Below are positions 1 through 7,717 of a stretch of 45,111 nucleotides of DNA, one piece after another. Source of the DNA: Pseudobdellovibrionaceae bacterium (GTDB taxonomy: Bacteria; Bdellovibrionota; Bdellovibrionia; Bdellovibrionales; JAMPXM01); contig CANHQR010000026.1 of the NCBI GenBank assembly GCA_947462815.1, forward strand, positions 1-45,111, given 5' to 3'. Made by a program: the position numbers and the translations under genes. Each line of letters begins with the position of its first letter. Position 1 is the stretch's first letter. The notes beneath the pieces are model-generated. The model worked only from the letters and a program-made list of their open reading frames with translations, was not told the origin of the DNA and ran no database searches.

Positions 1-1470
1 CGTATGATTCACACCCTCTTGGGCGCTGAGAAGTTTCGCCGAGGCATGGACCTTTACTTTGAACGGCACGATGGCACGGCTGCAACTTGCGACGACTTCG
101 TCAAGGCGATGGCGGATGCGAGTGGACGCGATCTCACCCAATTCAAACTTTGGTACGAACAAGCCGGAACACCCCAACTCTTCGTGAAAGAAGTTTGGCA
201 CGCGGAGCGAGGCGAATTGGAACTCGTGTTCCGTCAGGAACTGCCGCGAACTCCAGAACAAATTGAGGGACAATCGAAACACGCGCAAGTCATCCCCGTG
301 GCGCTAGGACTGATCGGTACCGATGGCCGGGACTTGGGGCCAACCGAAGTGGTCGAGGTGACGGCCTTTGAACAGAGCTGGAAAAAGTCGGGGTTGCGAG
401 AGCGCCCGCGCACGTCTTTGCTTCGTGGATTTTCGGCTCCCGTGAAACTGAATCGCGAGATCTCCGTCGATGATCTTCGCTTCCTCGCTTCGTTCGACTC
501 CGACCCGGTGGCACGATGGGAGACATCGCAAGAGCTGATGCTCCGATTTATGCTGAGCACACTGCGCGGTGATGTCCAGGTCAACGAGCTGCGCGCTGGC
601 GTCCTCGACGCTCTCGCCCAACTGCTCGACCAGACTTCCTCCCTCGATCCCGCGTTTGTGAGTTTCATGTTGCAGTTGCCGGCCGAGGCTTATGTGCAGC
701 AGTTCCTCACGGAAGTGGATCCCGATCAGGTTTTCCAGGTTCACTCCGGCCTACAGCGAGAAATCTCGCGACGTTTCCGCGCAAAGTTCGAAGACATTTA
801 CAATCAACTCAATCAACAGCTCGCGGCCAAAGCGGAACAGGATCCGCGCGCCTCTCGAAGCGGCCGCGCGATGGGCGAACGCGCCTTGCGCAACACCGCA
901 CTGAGCTACTTGTGTTTGTCGGACGATGTGCGCGACCTCGACCGAGCACTTCGTCAGCGACGTGAGGCAAAGGATATGACCACGGAGCTCGGTGCACTCG
1001 AGGCTTTGAACCGCAGCGCTCAAGCTGCCCGTCTGACCGCACTCGAAGAGTTTATTGGGAAGTGGAAGAATGAGCCGCTGGTCGTCAATAAATGGCTCAC
1101 GATTCGCGCCACTTCGCCGGCGCCCCGCACGCTCGACGAAATTCGCGAGCTCATGGACTCGCCCATCTTCGATCGCAATAACCCGAATAAGATCTACTCG
1201 CTGCTACTGGCCTTTGCGCGCTTCAACCAAGTGGGCTTCCACCAGAAGTCGGGAGCGGGTTATCGCTTCATTGCTGATCAAGTGCTGGATATCGACGCGC
1301 GCAATCCGCAGGTGGCCTCGCGTCTCGTCTCGGCGTTCAATTCGTGGCGCACCTACCGGGCCGATCGCCGCGAATTCATGGAATCCGAACTGCGACGAAT
1401 TTTGGCCCAGCCGAGCTTGTCTGCAAATGTGCGGGAGATCGTGGAGAAGGCCTTAGCGCCAAGGGCCTGA
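1..1470 (+). CDS. pepN: Aminopeptidase N, C-terminal part (5' end outside window)
   Basis: This is the C-terminal part of an M1-family zinc aminopeptidase, which removes N-terminal residues from peptides in the cytoplasm. The frame is open from base 1, so the true start and the HExxH zinc site lie upstream of the window. The visible segment begins with MIHTLLG, then the LYFERHDG, ATCDDFV and WYEQAGTP blocks typical of proteobacterial PepN just after the catalytic domain. The remaining ~400 residues match the family's helical C-terminal domain in character and end in VEKALAPRA. The stop is TGA at 1468-1470. It converges on the minus-strand gene ending at 1513, and I saw no clear terminator in the 42-bp gap. 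The family call is firm; only the 5' truncation by the window edge limits it. Confidence 0.93.
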   Translation, partial: RMIHTLLGAEKFRRGMDLYFERHDGTAATCDDFVKAMADASGRDLTQFKLWYEQAGTPQLFVKEVWHAERGELELVFRQELPRTPEQIEGQSKHAQVIPVALGLIGTDGRDLGPTEVVEVTAFEQSWKKSGLRERPRTSLLRGFSAPVKLNREISVDDLRFLASFDSDPVARWETSQELMLRFMLSTLRGDVQVNELRAGVLDALAQLLDQTSSLDPAFVSFMLQLPAEAYVQQFLTEVDPDQVFQVHSGLQREISRRFRAKFEDIYNQLNQQLAAKAEQDPRASRSGRAMGERALRNTALSYLCLSDDVRDLDRALRQRREAKDMTTELGALEALNRSAQAARLTALEEFIGKWKNEPLVVNKWLTIRATSPAPRTLDEIRELMDSPIFDRNNPNKIYSLLLAFARFNQVGFHQKSGAGYRFIADQVLDIDARNPQVASRLVSAFNSWRTYRADRREFMESELRRILAQPSLSANVREIVEKALAPRA

Positions 1471-1512: not shown

Positions 1513-2085
1513 TCAACGTGAAACACCCTCGTTCATCGCCCGCCCTTGTTCGGCGGCTTTGCGAATATCATCAGGTGACTCTTCGGGAACGCCTGCGGGA
1601 ACTTGGGGCCCGCGGGTGCGAATTTTTCGAATCAACATTTCTAAATCTACTGAGCGCATCGGCGAATGGCGACACTCGCTCTCGGGATCCGCACGGAATA
1701 TCACCGCTCGCGCCTGCCCTCGTCGATCATCGCGCAAGGAGGTGCGCAGTTCATGAGAAACCGCGAGACTCTGGCGCAGATTGTCTGGCAAGCGTGGCGT
1801 GCAAGCTTGAACTCGTTCCACTTCGAAACCCACCTCGGGAGCGACACCTCGGCGAAAATCCGAAATGCTCAGCAAAAAGAGAGGGCATGCGTGTCGCTGA
1901 CCTTGAGTCGTGACGAAGTCAATGCCAGCACGTCCATTCGTATCGATCCGCCAAGTCCATCGAAGGTCGCGAGCTTGTCCAGAACATCGAATCAACTCGC
2001 GGCCCTGAGCGTCGGCCATGACGAGCAACGAGGCGAGAACCAAAGCCCATCCGAAGCTGTTTCCCGACCTTTTTGACGAAATCAT
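1513..2085 (-). CDS. Small secreted four-cysteine protein, companion of PAD copy 2
   Basis: I do not recognise a named family. The ATG at 2085-2083 overlaps the TGA of the upstream deiminase gene (ATGA), which decides the start and implies translational coupling. The 190-residue product opens with a signal peptide (SFGWALVLASLLVMADAQG) and then has cysteines in the pattern LIRC - HACP - QACTP - ESEC. The protein encoded at 4114-4614 has the same spacing and several shared positions (C-x-L near a DFR/LRD stretch, a C-x-P pair, a conserved VSxE/EFS region, then AxVxF and a final Cys). The two are therefore paralogues, each following a PAD-like gene. The C-terminal ~40 residues (rich in P, E and R) are absent from the other copy. 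It could be a chaperone, inhibitor or substrate adaptor of the deiminase; the sequence does not say which. Confidence 0.75.
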   Translation of the reverse strand: MISSKRSGNSFGWALVLASLLVMADAQGRELIRCSGQARDLRWTWRIDTNGRAGIDFVTTQGQRHACPLFLLSISDFRRGVAPEVGFEVERVQACTPRLPDNLRQSLAVSHELRTSLRDDRRGQARAVIFRADPESECRHSPMRSVDLEMLIRKIRTRGPQVPAGVPEESPDDIRKAAEQGRAMNEGVSR

Positions 2086-3884
2086 CGGCGCCCTCCCTGA
2101 GGTCGAGCTGGTGTACGGGGTCGACAGTATCTCAAGACATTGCTGGAACAATGCAAGTTTCCTTGGACCAAATGCGCATAGGTCATGTCGATATGCTCAG
2201 TCGCGACACCGTGTCCTCGCAAGCGCGTGTCGAGCTCTCTTCGAAAAGACTCGTTGCCTGGATCAGGAAAAATGAATCGTCCGTTGATATTAAGCCCATT
2301 TGTGGGATTGCTGAAGATTCCGAGTGCGTTCGCAGGTCTCGCCTGCGCCCCAGAGCCCTGCATGCGGCCGTGAAACAGATTCGGCACCTCGATGATGGGA
2401 ACATCACAGCCATTGTTGGTCTCGCGGAGTCTTGCGCGAATGGCCTCAACGTTTCGATCCATAATCCCTTGTATGGCCATATTGTAATCGCGGAGAGAGC
2501 TGTCACCATCTCGACTTGGCATATCCATAGCGGCGAGGAGATCCGCGTTGGTCATGTCTTCACAATTCAGCACGGGACGAGCCTGGGGAGTGCGTTCGTT
2601 GGGCGAAGAGGTCGGAGAGTCTTCGTCAGACGGGATTGAAGCGAGATCCGCCTGAGCTTCTCGAAGGGGCCAAAGCCATCTGAAGCCTTGTGTCCGAGTT
2701 CCTCGCGTTCCACCGGGCGACCGCTCCCGCCTCTCCGTACGAGTTTCTTGCCATCGACGGCAGAGATCTCGCCAAGCATCATACATCTGAATCCGTCCTT
2801 GCCGATGCTCGGGAGAGACATCTTGCTGCCAATTGAACATCGGTTGTTGGCGGTTACGTTCCAAGAGTTGCAGTCCCAATCGCGGCGAAGCGACCATCAC
2901 CGCGAAGCCGCAACGGCTTTGGTTGGAAGGCACAATACTGACAATTTCGTCTGTATGACCAACTGTTAGAAACGACGTATCAAGTTGCAAAGGCCGCTGA
3001 CCACCGCAGACCTCGGTCGAATACTGGCTCCATTGTCCCGTCGTCAAATGGTTGGTTCCCAAGACACAGTTGCCGCCAGGTAGGGCTTCAATGTTTCCAC
3101 CGCCATGACCATTTTCGAGTTGTCCCTCTCGCCGCATCGTTGGGCCCGTTGTGACTCCACACTGTGCGGCGGCTTCACGGATCGCAGCTAACGTCGCATC
3201 GGCGTTAAAGCTATGGTTCACGTAGCGATCTGCGCCGCGGATCACAGGTCGACCCGTTTGCGGATCGAAAAAGGGCTGCAAGATATCCTGCTGCCAGTTG
3301 TAGCTCTGAGCGCCCGTGCGGCGAAGCGCCGCCAACCATCGCGCTTGAGTGGCGCGATCCGGAGCTTCGCGACGAATTCGCTCTTCGATCACACGCACGG
3401 ATGACGCATCCATATTGAGAAACAACACTGGCGTATGCCGTCCCGAGGCGCGCAAGATCGTGAGCGCCTTATCGCCAATGACTTGTTGAGGATTGATCCC
3501 CAGCCTTTGACCGAGCTGGGCATCACCACCCAAAATATCATCGGATAAAACGACAGCCGCGGCCGGATAGGTTTCGGGGAGCATGGTGCCCTCAGGAGGA
3601 CACTCGGGAACGTCGGGTCGCTGCGAGGGAGGAATGGGACATTGAGCTGGCGCTCTTCGATTTGCACAAGCGACCTCGTGCGAACCCCAAAAAGATCCGA
3701 TAAAAGTGACGCCGAAAATGAGGCCGCGAATGAGCGCAGATGATTTTTCCGCGAGCGTGATCTTCGCTTCGAACGCCGAAGCTTGTCGAATCAGTCTGTC
3801 GGATCCACGACGGCTCGAACTCACGCCCCACACCTCGACGAAAAAATCGCCCGTGACCTCTTCCCTTATCGGCACAAGACTCAC
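2082..3884 (-). CDS. Secreted protein-arginine deiminase (PAD)-like enzyme, copy 2
   Basis: A 600-residue exported homologue of the catalytic domain of protein-arginine deiminases, which convert peptidyl-arginine to citrulline. Residues about 50-74 form a signal segment ending VACA. Family blocks appear in PAD order: WQQD (D200, matching PAD4 D350), GGGNIEALPG (262-270, matching GNLEVSP), GHTDEIVSIVP (309-319; H310 and D312 match H471 and D473), VASPRLG (331-337), IIEVPNLF (497-504), NGLNINGR (529-536) and NLHCSSN (576-582; C579 matches C645). All four catalytic positions are thus present. A ~100-residue basic, Ser/Pro-rich linker (380-440, with GTRGTRT) is an insertion relative to animal enzymes. 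No PAD N-terminal or middle domain is seen. The start is GTG with only a weak GAAG upstream, so the exact N-terminus is uncertain. Its stop overlaps the companion gene's start. Confidence 0.85.
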   Translation of the reverse strand: MSLVPIREEVTGDFFVEVWGVSSSRRGSDRLIRQASAFEAKITLAEKSSALIRGLIFGVTFIGSFWGSHEVACANRRAPAQCPIPPSQRPDVPECPPEGTMLPETYPAAAVVLSDDILGGDAQLGQRLGINPQQVIGDKALTILRASGRHTPVLFLNMDASSVRVIEERIRREAPDRATQARWLAALRRTGAQSYNWQQDILQPFFDPQTGRPVIRGADRYVNHSFNADATLAAIREAAAQCGVTTGPTMRREGQLENGHGGGNIEALPGGNCVLGTNHLTTGQWSQYSTEVCGGQRPLQLDTSFLTVGHTDEIVSIVPSNQSRCGFAVMVASPRLGLQLLERNRQQPMFNWQQDVSPEHRQGRIQMYDAWRDLCRRWQETRTERRERSPGGTRGTRTQGFRWLWPLREAQADLASIPSDEDSPTSSPNERTPQARPVLNCEDMTNADLLAAMDMPSRDGDSSLRDYNMAIQGIMDRNVEAIRARLRETNNGCDVPIIEVPNLFHGRMQGSGAQARPANALGIFSNPTNGLNINGRFIFPDPGNESFRRELDTRLRGHGVATEHIDMTYAHLVQGNLHCSSNVLRYCRPRTPARPQGGRR

Positions 3885-4113
3885 TGGACTTCAGGCCGGG
3901 CACCCCAACCAATTGATTCGGCGGCGACTTACGCCTAAGTGTCCGACTTCAGATGATATTTACAAAGTGGGCCCCTTAATTGGGCTGCTCCCAATCCTTC
4001 TTCATAGCCCCAATCGGGCCGGCTGAGTTTCGAGTCCATCCTGAAGTGGCTTAAACCATTGAAATAATTTGTTATTTTTGCACCCCAAGCACAATCAACG
4101 GGCCCAGTTAACA

Positions 4114-4614
4114 TCAGTTGCGCCGTTGAATCCGGCCCTCCGCGAGGCGCTTGAAAGCCTCGGGCTTCCACAGCTTGAGCTGACAACCCCAGCTTTCATC
4201 TCGCATGAGAAAGACGACCTCGGCCTTTTCGGTAATCACGGAGTAACTGAACTCAACAGATCGAACAATTTCTTCTTGGAGTTTTTCCGAGATCGCCGGC
4301 GAACACTTCGAATCTCGCGACGCGCGAAATCTCAGAGCCGGAATTTTCTCTCTTGAGGCATCGCGAAGATCCTGAACTTGCAGGCGACAAACACTGCGCT
4401 TTCCTGTTTCATCGTCGACCACGAGATGCGCGTCGCCGACGGCATCGAGCTGAAGAATACTACGACCCTCAAGAGACTTCATGACAGAATTTTTTGGCGC
4501 CTTAAGTTGACACTGCATCACCAGAGATGAAGCCGAGGCCAATGCCAGACTCTCTCCAAAACCCACGATCACCAGACACCAAAAGAAAGTCGCAAACGAA
4601 GCCTTTGCAATCAT
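4114..4614 (-). CDS. Small secreted four-cysteine protein, companion of PAD copy 1
   Basis: Unknown family. The ATG at 4614-4612 overlaps the TGA (4613-4611) of the upstream PAD-like gene, so this start is preferred over any longer reading. The 166-residue product has a signal peptide (MIAKASFATFFWCLVIVGFGESLALA) and cysteines at VMQC, SVCRL, SKCSP and WGCQ. Its pattern around RLQVQDLRDASREKIPALRF and SVEFSYSVITEKAEVVF is alignable by eye with the product encoded at 1513-2085, making the two paralogues. Four conserved cysteines suggest two disulfides in the mature exported protein, which is an inference. Position and coupling indicate it is made together with the deiminase. Roughly 230 bp separate it from the second cassette. 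Confidence 0.78.
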   Translation of the reverse strand: MIAKASFATFFWCLVIVGFGESLALASASSLVMQCQLKAPKNSVMKSLEGRSILQLDAVGDAHLVVDDETGKRSVCRLQVQDLRDASREKIPALRFRASRDSKCSPAISEKLQEEIVRSVEFSYSVITEKAEVVFLMRDESWGCQLKLWKPEAFKRLAEGRIQRRN

Positions 4615-6311
4615 GGCGAACGCGTCCCGGCTCGAGGTCGACAGTAACGAATCACATTCGTCATGCAATGCAAGTTGCCGCCGATGATGTGGCCTCCAAA
4701 AGAATCGGCAAATCGAAACTGAACTCCTGCATCCGTGTAAGCGCGCTGAATGTGCGCTCGGAATGCTGGATTCGCAGGATCCGGGACGAGGGCGCGACCG
4801 CCTGTCAGCATCGCATTCGTCGTACCGGGAAAGAGGCTCACCGCAGAGTGAGGAGCCGGCTGACCGTTGGGTAAAAGTCGTCCGACAAATAGGGCCGGAA
4901 CCTCGATCACGCGGGGCTCGCCACAATGGGGGAGTCTTCGCTTGATCGCACGGACCAAGCCATCCCGGTTTCGGTCTTGAACACCCTGAAGGGCACGATT
5001 GAAGTCCGCCCAGCTTCCGGCGAAGTTACGGCCCGGTGAACGAAGTGTTTCCATGAGGCTTGCGTTGCTCATGCGAGCACAACGTTCAAAGTCGCTCGCG
5101 TGGGCATTTTGCACCAGAGGTTTCGACCACTGAGAACGTGTTCGAGTTCCTCGCGTTCCGCTGCCAACCCCAGCTTCGACCATTTGTTCGCAGAGCATTT
5201 TCCAAGATTCCAGCTCACGAAACCGACGACCCATCACCGCGTCGCCGACATCGCTTTCGTACTGAAAGGCTCTTTGTGAGGGATTTCGCTCTAACAATTC
5301 GAGACCCAGCCGCGGACTCGCCACGACAACAGAGAATGCACAAGGATCCGGCGGGTTCTGCGCTCCACCACGCGGGACGATCGAGACCAATTCATCGACA
5401 TGGCCGGTTCCCAAAAACTGGGTGTCGACCTCTACCAAATTTGTATTGCCGCCGCAGGCGCGATTGGCAAAGCGACGATAATGCCCATAGGAAAAATGAT
5501 CTTCACCCACAGCGCAAACACCGCCGGGAAAGCCTTCGACATTTCCACCGGCTCGACCATTGACACGCGCCAGATCGTCGCCGCCTAGACTCGGGCCAAT
5601 TTCCGCACCGCAGGTATTTTTTGCCGCATCCATGAGTTGTCGAGTGAGACCGTCATACTCGCCACCAAAGTAGCCATCGAGAGCGCGAAGCACCGGACGC
5701 CCCGTCTGCGGATTCACATAGGCCTGCAGCAAATCCTGCTGCCAGGGATAAGACCATGAGAAGCGGGATGGCGGTACCGAGGTTATGGCTCGCATCCAGA
5801 GCGCACGACGGCGAGGATCTTCAATCGCTTGAATGCGTTGTCGAAGTGCCTCGAGAGTGCCGGACTCGACGTTCAGGATCAATTGTGGCGGGCGATCGGG
5901 CTGTGACTCTAAGGCCTGCCAAGCTTGATGGACAGCGTCTCTTTGGGCATCGATGCCCATCGATCGATTGATATTGCCCATGACCATTCGACCTAAGCCA
6001 AATTGCTTAATCCCACCGCCGTCGGAAATCATCACAGCCATGGCTGGATAGTTTTCCGAGAGGATGGTGGTACGACCATCTGCACCCGGAACGGGGCACT
6101 CGGGAACATCTGGAGACTGCGGATTATGATCCTGGCAGATTGGACCCGTCGCTGGATTGGCTGTCGGATTCGCGAAGGCCCACCGGATCGGACAGGCAAG
6201 AAAGATCGCCACACAAATAACCTTCCACGCTTGATCGGAACGTGAGCACCGCTCTCGAAGAGCTTGGTGCTTCCGTACGGTCTGAGCCAGCAGACGCGTG
6301 CATGGGATCAT
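4611..6311 (-). CDS. Secreted protein-arginine deiminase (PAD)-like enzyme, copy 1
   Basis: A 566-residue paralogue of the product encoded at 2082-3884. A signal segment spans about 28-47 (VICVAIFLACPIRWAFA). PAD blocks: PWQQDLLQAY (D193 matching PAD4 D350), GGNVEGFPG (255-263), GHVDELVSIVP (303-313; H304 and D306 matching H471 and D473), VVVASPRLG (328-336), VIEVPALF (468-475), TTNAMLTGGR (497-506) and GNLHCMTN (545-552; C549 matching C645). These are the nucleophile, His and two Asp of the pentein-fold guanidino-modifying mechanism. The linker (about 380-410) again carries GTRGTRT. The ATG at 6311 overlaps the TGA of the transhydrogenase gene and has GGAAGGA about 8 bases upstream, so the start is well supported. 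Calcium-site residues of animal PADs could not be mapped by eye. Predicted to act outside the cytoplasm on arginine-containing proteins or peptides. Confidence 0.87.
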   Translation of the reverse strand: MIPCTRLLAQTVRKHQALRERCSRSDQAWKVICVAIFLACPIRWAFANPTANPATGPICQDHNPQSPDVPECPVPGADGRTTILSENYPAMAVMISDGGGIKQFGLGRMVMGNINRSMGIDAQRDAVHQAWQALESQPDRPPQLILNVESGTLEALRQRIQAIEDPRRRALWMRAITSVPPSRFSWSYPWQQDLLQAYVNPQTGRPVLRALDGYFGGEYDGLTRQLMDAAKNTCGAEIGPSLGGDDLARVNGRAGGNVEGFPGGVCAVGEDHFSYGHYRRFANRACGGNTNLVEVDTQFLGTGHVDELVSIVPRGGAQNPPDPCAFSVVVASPRLGLELLERNPSQRAFQYESDVGDAVMGRRFRELESWKMLCEQMVEAGVGSGTRGTRTRSQWSKPLVQNAHASDFERCARMSNASLMETLRSPGRNFAGSWADFNRALQGVQDRNRDGLVRAIKRRLPHCGEPRVIEVPALFVGRLLPNGQPAPHSAVSLFPGTTNAMLTGGRALVPDPANPAFRAHIQRAYTDAGVQFRFADSFGGHIIGGNLHCMTNVIRYCRPRAGTRSP

Positions 6312-7717
6312 GGAGATGTTCCTTCCAAATCCGTCAGTTGATTTCGCGCATTGTAGGCTGCGACTTTGTAGGCTTCTGCAAGCGTGGGGTAGTTGAAGAC
6401 GTTATCCACCAAGAAATCCACAGTGGCACCAAAGGCCATGCAGAGCTGACCGATGTGCACCAACTCTGTCGCTCCAGTACCAATCACATGCACACCCATA
6501 ATTCGATGTGTTTGCTCGTGAACAATGAGTTTGAGAAATCCGAACTCGTCTTCGATCATTTTTCCCCGTGCAAGCTCGGAATAATTCGCAATACCCACGA
6601 CGAACTTTACCCCACGCGCCCGCAAATCTTCTTCGCGAACTCCGACCGTGGAAATTTCTGGAATTGTATAGATCCCGTATGGGAAGGTCTCAGGAAAGCT
6701 CGCCTCGGCACTCGTGAACATATGCAGGGCCGCCAGTCGACCTTGCTCCGAGGACGATGCCGCTAAAGCGGGCGCACCGATGATATCACCCACAGCGTAG
6801 ATGTTTCCAGAAGGCGCAGCCGTCTTGTAGTTGGCATCTACGTCGAGTGTGCCTCGCTCATCCGACCTCAGACCTACAGATTCAAGATTGAGAAGTTCGA
6901 AATTTCCCGTCCGGCCCTGACAGACCAAAACAGCATCGTACTTTTCCGTCACCACTTCATCTTCACGACTCATCGTCGCGTCGGCCCGCCACGCTCGTCC
7001 CGTCTCGCCGGCGACCGTCTCGATTGAGTGTAGGGTCCATCCCAGCTTGAGACGCATGCCGTTCTTCTCAAACTGCTTCTTAAGAGCTGAGACGATCCCC
7101 GCGTCGATGTTGCGCAGAATATCCGCTTTGGAATCGAACAACGTCACGCGAACTCCCGTCCGCGCAAAGATTGATGCATACTCGACGCCGATGACTCCAG
7201 CTCCGATTACCAGCATCGTGCGCGGCTGAAACTTCATCTGCAGAATCGTATCGGAATCGAAAACCGTGAACCCATCAAAATCAAATTCAGCAGCCCGACG
7301 CGGTCGAGTTCCCGTCGCGATCAGAATGAAGTGACCGTTCAGCCTTTGTGCGATCCCTTCATGCTCGACGATCACGGTGTGAGCGTCTTGAAAGCGACCC
7401 ACACCTCGCACAAACTCGACATCATTCCGAGATAAGCTCTTTTCAATGACGTCACGCTCTTCACGGATGATCCGCCGCGTACGCTCCATAACACCAAGTA
7501 ACGACATATCGCCGGCTTGTGCCATCAAGGCCGACTCGCGCAAAGCTTTTGAGGGAATGGTACCCAGTTGAAGACAGGAGCCACCCAAGAGATCTTTTTC
7601 GACCACGACAACGCGTTTGCCGAGTTTGGCCGCCTGAACGGCCGCGCGCTGACCGCCAGGGCCAGAGCCGATCACAATCAAATCATAAAACGAGGCTTGG
7701 CCTGAAACTTTCGTCAC
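6308..7717 (-). CDS. sthA: Soluble pyridine nucleotide transhydrogenase
   Basis: A 469-residue flavoprotein of the dihydrolipoamide dehydrogenase fold that exchanges reducing equivalents between NADPH and NAD+ in the cytosol. The FAD-binding GSGPGG motif is at 17-22. The redox-site region reads GGSCLQLGTIPSKALR: the first Cys (C48) is kept and the second is Thr (T53), which is the SthA pattern and not the CxxxxC of lipoamide dehydrogenase. A second nucleotide-binding stretch (VIGAGVIGVEYASIFARTG) lies near 173-191. The C-terminal NYPTLAEAYKVAAYNA block and length also fit SthA (about 466 residues). The start is GTG with no obvious ribosome site. It lies 32 bp after the AI-2E-type transporter gene, and its stop overlaps the start of PAD copy 1, so the two may share a transcript. 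Confidence 0.88.
   Translation of the reverse strand: MTKVSGQASFYDLIVIGSGPGGQRAAVQAAKLGKRVVVVEKDLLGGSCLQLGTIPSKALRESALMAQAGDMSLLGVMERTRRIIREERDVIEKSLSRNDVEFVRGVGRFQDAHTVIVEHEGIAQRLNGHFILIATGTRPRRAAEFDFDGFTVFDSDTILQMKFQPRTMLVIGAGVIGVEYASIFARTGVRVTLFDSKADILRNIDAGIVSALKKQFEKNGMRLKLGWTLHSIETVAGETGRAWRADATMSREDEVVTEKYDAVLVCQGRTGNFELLNLESVGLRSDERGTLDVDANYKTAAPSGNIYAVGDIIGAPALAASSSEQGRLAALHMFTSAEASFPETFPYGIYTIPEISTVGVREEDLRARGVKFVVGIANYSELARGKMIEDEFGFLKLIVHEQTHRIMGVHVIGTGATELVHIGQLCMAFGATVDFLVDNVFNYPTLAEAYKVAAYNARNQLTDLEGTSP

Follow-up and report, generated by a model that had tools for sequence, protein, structure and literature searches.

The minus strand of positions 1513-6311 of the window, the whole 45,111-nucleotide stretch of Pseudobdellovibrionaceae DNA that was analyzed, carries two head-to-tail copies of a unit made up of a gene for a protein-arginine deiminase (PAD) homologue and a gene for a small, exported-type protein. 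In the first pair, PAD-B (4611..6311, minus strand), recognized from its open reading frame, a PF03068 match, and a structural model, is a putative exported single-domain PAD homologue of 566 aa with predicted catalytic residues D193, H304, D306, and C549. It is ATGA-coupled to companion B (4114..4614, minus strand), a small basic four-cysteine protein of 166 aa that is predicted to be exported. The second putative exported homologue, PAD-A (2082..3884, minus strand; predicted catalytic residues D200, H310, D312, and C579), has a length of 600 aa when counted from a GTG codon, its true start being uncertain, and is ATGA-coupled in the same way to companion A (1513..2085, minus strand), a small basic four-cysteine protein of 190 aa, also predicted to be exported. 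The open reading frames, strands, and coordinates all agree with the tandem two-gene unit of the preliminary description, and the ATGA overlap that it reported between the PAD gene and the small gene is real in both copies. A spacer of 229 bases (3885..4113, minus strand) separates the pairs; a promoter and terminator scan found no sigma-70-like promoter in it, and its terminator-like matches were at chance level. A third ATGA junction (6308-6311) lies upstream, where the TGA of a Pyr_redox_2 (lipoamide dehydrogenase-like) gene (6308..7717, minus strand) overlaps the ATG of PAD-B, and the first pair is therefore probably cotranscribed with this gene. The oxidoreductase, PAD-B, and companion B also look translationally coupled. 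On the other side, the C-terminal part of an M1-type aminopeptidase with DUF3458 domains, truncated by the contig end (about 1-1470, plus strand), is convergent with the module, as it is in a genome of the same family, G010.

Aligned over 535 columns, PAD-A and PAD-B share 36% identity (E 4e-95), which makes the duplication an old one, and the two companions are recognizably related (E 7e-6). The whole genome of the window organism holds two PADs and two companions and no others, and among the surveyed genomes it is the only one with two close PADs. In G010 there is a single pair; the aminopeptidase again lies downstream of it, and the dehydrogenase is found two genes upstream. The G010 PAD is sister to both window copies in the tree (97/87), and the window copies group together weakly (82/24). 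This arrangement is most simply read as a duplication in place, with loss in G010 as a less likely alternative. The preliminary description had offered the doubled pair as a candidate new system; the tandem copy is indeed special to this genome, whereas the pair itself is not peculiar to it and occurs in Bdellovibrio bacteriovorus.

Both large proteins matched PF03068, the family that had been expected for them, with scores of 53.8 and 52 bits, well over the cut-off of 25 bits (Pfam E ~1e-14). It was their sole significant family, and the profile of the PPAD/agmatine-deiminase family was not matched. A profile of the window PAD family retrieves human PAD1-4 and PAD6 among PDB sequences, and in a wider phylum profile the WQQD, GGN.E, GHVDE, and G.HC blocks align with the Asp350, Glu411, His471/Asp473, and Cys645 sites of PAD4 (residue roles and calcium site list from PMC13023937). 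By profile alignment, the equivalents of catalytic Asp350, His471, Asp473, and Cys645 are kept as D/H/D/C in both window copies, and the residue numbers given earlier for the two proteins proved exact. The proposed structural overlay gave a Z of about 30, with the PAD-B model (pLDDT 78.8, pTM 0.85) superposing on the catalytic domain of human PAD3 (Z 30.1, rmsd 3.1 over 327 residues) and PAD4 (Z 29.6). From profiles and model together, the assignment of the large proteins to the PAD catalytic-domain family is well supported, and both window PADs would be expected to be catalytically active. Model residues 27-518 cover PAD3/4 residues 294-661, with about 26 mature residues ahead of the catalytic domain. 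Given that the model aligns only to this part of PAD3/4, PAD_N and PAD_M appear to be absent, and the window PADs seem to represent a one-domain form of the enzyme that lacks both PAD_N and the calcium-sensing PAD_M. The Ca1 ligands equivalent to Gln349 and Glu411 are retained, and Glu353 is changed to Gln in both copies; at Ca2, Glu351 is replaced by Leu/Ile, and no Ca2-type site was found in the window PADs. The Ca3-Ca5 ligands belong to the N-terminal domains that are absent here, and these sites were likewise not found. The N-termini of the PADs are signal-like as judged by eye, and the close PADs have about ten invariant cysteines in common. Both window PADs also contain a low-confidence arginine-rich insert sharing GTRGTRT (window 2691-2711 and 5139-5159), possibly a self-citrullination or binding loop.

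The companions have four invariant cysteines, in keeping with the conserved four-cysteine pattern previously noted in a small predicted-exported protein, along with about 110-170 mature residues and N-termini that are signal-like by eye. Searches of Pfam, NCBIfam, PHROG, PADLOC, and PDB sequences turned up no relative of the companions. The 25 companions scanned had no shared Pfam family, and there was no sequence-profile match to MliC/PliC or lipocalin-type inhibitor families; scattered single-member Pfam, NCBIfam, and PDB matches were treated as chance. Judged by sequence comparison, the companions are a new protein family, undescribed in the searched literature. By profile comparison, the four-cysteine companions found inside the order are homologous to those found outside it (hhalign 75.7 versus a shuffled maximum of 14.8 in 50 shuffles), and the score of the two-cysteine companions of divergent PADs against the four-cysteine family (21.7 versus a shuffled maximum of 15.7) is only suggestive of homology. 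The pI of the companions exceeds 8 in 31/34 (median, 9.3), whereas 56 other small open reading frames of exported-like type in the same neighborhoods have a median pI of 6.4 (p 5e-9, by a statistic that ignores relatedness). In 300/300 pairs, the companions show lower conservation than their PADs. Several terminate in arginine-rich tails, with arginines that are not conserved. The model of companion B (pLDDT 72.6, pTM 0.70) shows a small barrel, rich in beta structure, and two short helices, and its best structural neighbors, a lipocalin-like protein (Z 5.8), 1y9l (Z 5.5), and PliC (Z 4.9), lie at background level and are leads only. PliC was also the Foldseek rank 1, at a nonsignificant E of 0.21. 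Fold matches to 1y9l (a "secretion system protein"), Gid4, and designed barrels were set aside as within background.

We surveyed 141 genomes of the order for full-length close PADs (E below 1e-100) and a further sample of the phylum for close PADs (E below 1e-80). The companion was adjacent in 15/16 cases in the order and 11/11 in the further sample, so that pooled over the sampled Bdellovibrionota it stands next door to 26 of 27 close PAD homologues. Conversely, a companion profile run over the 141 genomes found 15 intact loci, 14 of them beside a PAD; weak matches in G021 and G031 had internal stops and were dismissed as noise. The remaining locus is an intact orphan companion in G009 (L090 1085-1589), a genome 84% complete in which no PAD was found. 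Two genomes that are not sisters have the reverse gene order, in which the companion precedes the PAD: G131, which belongs to the 27, and G195, whose PAD is a more distant match (E 6e-65). The linkage thus outlasts two gene-order changes and the turnover of every other neighbor at a median PAD identity of 29%, and the operon neighbors of the pair differ between genera. Divergent PADs in G218, G228, G295, G302, and G311 have a two-cysteine exported-type protein at the same tightly coupled place; a similar fragment downstream of the PAD in G242 was left out of the companion counts. PADs are frequent in the phylum, and divergent, often membrane-anchored ones occur without a companion. Homologues that regularly lack the small gene, which the preliminary description had held would count against it, are therefore found among these divergent PADs but not inside the close subfamily, where the co-occurrence that it proposed surveying holds. 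No relative of the module was found in viral contigs, phages, or plasmids, which gives no sign of phage or plasmid cargo, and defense-system and phage-protein libraries yielded no meaningful match. The PAD-companion pair is a real conserved module, the partnership is well supported, and its lasting adjacency across the phylum suggests that the companion is a dedicated partner of the PAD. Two divergent cases were observed in passing: a PAD homologue in G121 (L101) has D/M/N/S instead of D/H/D/C and is apparently a catalytically dead, lipoprotein-like paralogue, and G313 (L140-L144) has five divergent unlinked PADs, 4/5 of them with WxRD, in which Arg replaces the calcium ligand Gln349.

The sole close PAD without a companion, that of G019 (L027), has WQKD in place of WQQD and AGNIG in place of GGNIE and has thus lost two Ca1 ligands (Gln349 to Lys and Glu411 to Gly, in PAD4 numbers). 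The lysine at the Gln349 position might replace the calcium ion. We compared 66 PADs, 33 with and 33 without a companion; the automatic lipobox test was poor, and the membrane-anchored class was assigned by eye. None of the 33 companion-bearing PADs was anchored or without the Ca1 ligands Q349/E411, compared with 24/33 companion-less PADs that lacked the Ca1 ligands, were anchored, or both (Fisher p 1e-10). On the tree, this reduces to five or six independent contrasts, in which all differing ones point in the same direction and the result is not significant. Nine soluble, apparently intact PADs are without a companion, including that of G242; PADs of this kind occur in G059, G106, and G232, among others. 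The comparison hints that companions accompany soluble PADs with a competent calcium site, as a tendency and not as a rule.

A single PAD-companion pair also lies directly before bd1934 in G039. The gene 3' of the companion contains exact matches to the RT-PCR primers published for bd1934 (PMC3593177), and G039 is thereby identified as B. bacteriovorus HD100 or a strain very close to it. The bd1934 product is an exported nuclease of the staphylococcal type, and the gene is expressed early, with a peak 15-45 min after prey contact (PMC2797640, PMC3593177, PMC7925074). A cysteine desulphurase-type gene sits divergently upstream in G039, and Bd1938 is a cysteine desulphurase; with bd1934 and Bd1938 flanking three genes, these are by gene count Bd1937, Bd1936 (the PAD), and Bd1935 (the companion). 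Bd1937, so identified, lies 2 bases before the PAD; it has been described as a RomR partner that localizes to the invasive pole (PMC11025332) and is listed as required for predation (PMC6561027). The HD100 pair sits in a probable prey-invasion operon. No account of Bd1935 or Bd1936 was found in the searched literature. Not every relative conserves the nuclease, and its linkage is absent in G072.

Collectively, these observations led us to a model in which the PAD would be a soluble, Sec-exported, single-domain enzyme that would deiminate arginines of envelope or prey proteins, and the companion an exported, basic, disulfide-stabilized beta-barrel that would hold the PAD in check in trans as a cognate inhibitor or safety protein. 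Such restraint would last until the PAD has left the predator's own periplasm, and trans control by the partner would replace the missing cis calcium switch (PAD_M). The companion is probably an inhibitor. We infer that it would bind the PAD directly and inhibit it and that the enzyme would be used against prey, a use that the HD100 neighborhood makes plausible. In animal PADs, a middle domain that senses calcium gates the enzyme in cis, and we favor inhibition or containment given that the PAD here is without such a switch and that the companion is small, cysteine-paired, fast-evolving, and basic, the substrate of PADs being cationic. An enzyme with a small beta-barrel inhibitor encoded alongside is, moreover, a known pattern, as in staphopain/staphostatin and AprA/AprI, and MliC/PliC are periplasmic barrel inhibitors; the weak fold resemblance of the companion model to PliC, a periplasmic lysozyme inhibitor, was also counted for inhibition. 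Against this reading stand the orphan companion of G009, the soluble, apparently intact PADs without a companion (G059, G106, G232, and others), and companion fold matches that fall short of significance (Foldseek E 0.21; Z under 6). The Ca1 and localization correlations, moreover, involve few independent changes and lose significance when tested on the tree, the identities of Bd1935, Bd1936, and Bd1937 depend on gene count, and the nuclease linkage is absent in G072. We hold the whole reading, an exported deiminase kept in check by a cognate partner and used in predation, at slightly under an even chance. Its strongest form, in which predators carry a dedicated citrullination weapon, a PAD without the calcium-sensing domain released into prey during invasion while a cognate periplasmic inhibitor protects the predator, is possible but rather doubtful.

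The main rival, which we consider unlikely, is that the companion serves the PAD in the periplasm as a chaperone, an activator, or a secretion pilot, helping to fold the disulfide-rich enzyme or carrying it across the outer membrane. An obligate complex would suit the ATGA coupling and the near one-to-one linkage, about ten invariant cysteines in the close PADs would suit a chaperone, and membrane-anchored PADs, which need no outer-membrane step, are without a companion; the companion model also resembles the secretion system protein 1y9l, at Z 5.5 level with other barrels. However, neither the orphan companion of G009 nor the soluble companion-less PADs of G019, G066, and G059 fit this role, and the fold match is not significant. 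The companions are basic, and several have arginine-rich tails, as might be expected if the companion were a dedicated substrate or scaffold whose citrullination altered, for example, the charge of a surface or matrix protein; yet conservation lies in the cysteines and not in the arginines, and the G174 and G290 companions have 0-2 arginines in the mature part, which leaves this role improbable. More improbable still is an ordinary hydrolytic or catabolic enzyme with a hitchhiking neighbor, linked by shared descent only. PADs are frequent in the phylum, some are companion-less, and the operon neighbors vary by genus, but the persistence of the linkage through both order flips and all other neighbor changes, at so low a PAD identity, argues otherwise. 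Finally, the PAD could act on the cell's own surface or biofilm proteins and have no predatory role, which would be compatible with any role of the companion and seems to us somewhat unlikely. The bd1934 nuclease mutants have an altered prey-biofilm phenotype and no planktonic predation defect (PMC3593177), in line with such a role; the HD100 pair nevertheless has the gene for a prey-induced nuclease on one side and, by gene count, that for an invasive-pole protein on the other.

In summary, the PAD catalytic family is known, and the searched literature describes neither the companion family nor the module. No description of the pair was found in work on Bdellovibrio with deiminase or citrulline, on Bd1935-Bd1936, or on PF03068, and the earlier statement that a bacterial PAD with a coupled secreted companion had not been described held for the searchable literature. 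The PADs described here are common in one mostly predatory phylum, predicted to be exported, stripped of the calcium-sensing domains, and placed beside a new protein family. Since HD100 is genetically tractable and has one copy beside a prey-induced nuclease, the role of a bacterial PAD and its control without PAD_M are directly testable. If the companion inhibits, it would be a natural PAD-binding protein of interest to the PAD-inhibitor field, and control of citrullination in trans by a partner would, if true, represent both a new form of PAD regulation and a new posttranslational tool in bacterial predation.

The window PADs resemble the animal and cyanobacterial PADIs (human PAD1-4 and cyanoPADI of Cyanothece) in catalytic fold, in the Asp/His/Asp/Cys set, and in the Q349- and E411-type Ca1 ligands, but differ in the absence of PAD_N and PAD_M, the replaced Ca2-type ligand, the predicted export, the many cysteines, and the coupled companion. 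Three-domain PADs occur in animals and cyanobacteria and two-domain PADs in fungi and other bacteria (PMC8826395). Like the two-domain actinobacterial and fungal PADIs, the window proteins belong to a bacterial PAD_C family outside the animal/cyanobacterial clade; those enzymes are reported to keep a divergent PAD_M (PMC8826395) and have no reported companion, whereas the window model has no room for PAD_M. Porphyromonas gingivalis PPAD is an exported bacterial arginine deiminase of the same overall superfamily, but it is of the extended agmatine-deiminase type and phyletically distinct (PMC8826395), and the window proteins match PF03068 only. A further parallel is the bd1934-bd1938 locus of B. 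bacteriovorus HD100, with an orthologous PAD-companion pair (Bd1936/Bd1935 by gene count); that locus holds a single pair, and its partners are Bd1937 and the nuclease instead of the lipoamide dehydrogenase-like gene of the window. The module differs from staphopain/staphostatin, AprA/AprI, and MliC/PliC in that no sequence relation was found, its target would be a deiminase, and inhibition is hypothetical. It resembles the first two in placing an exported-type enzyme and a small barrel-model protein side by side, and MliC/PliC as periplasmic barrel inhibitors, and the conserved enzyme-partner linkage of enzyme-inhibitor (toxin-immunity-like) pairs is found here in 26/27 close PADs.
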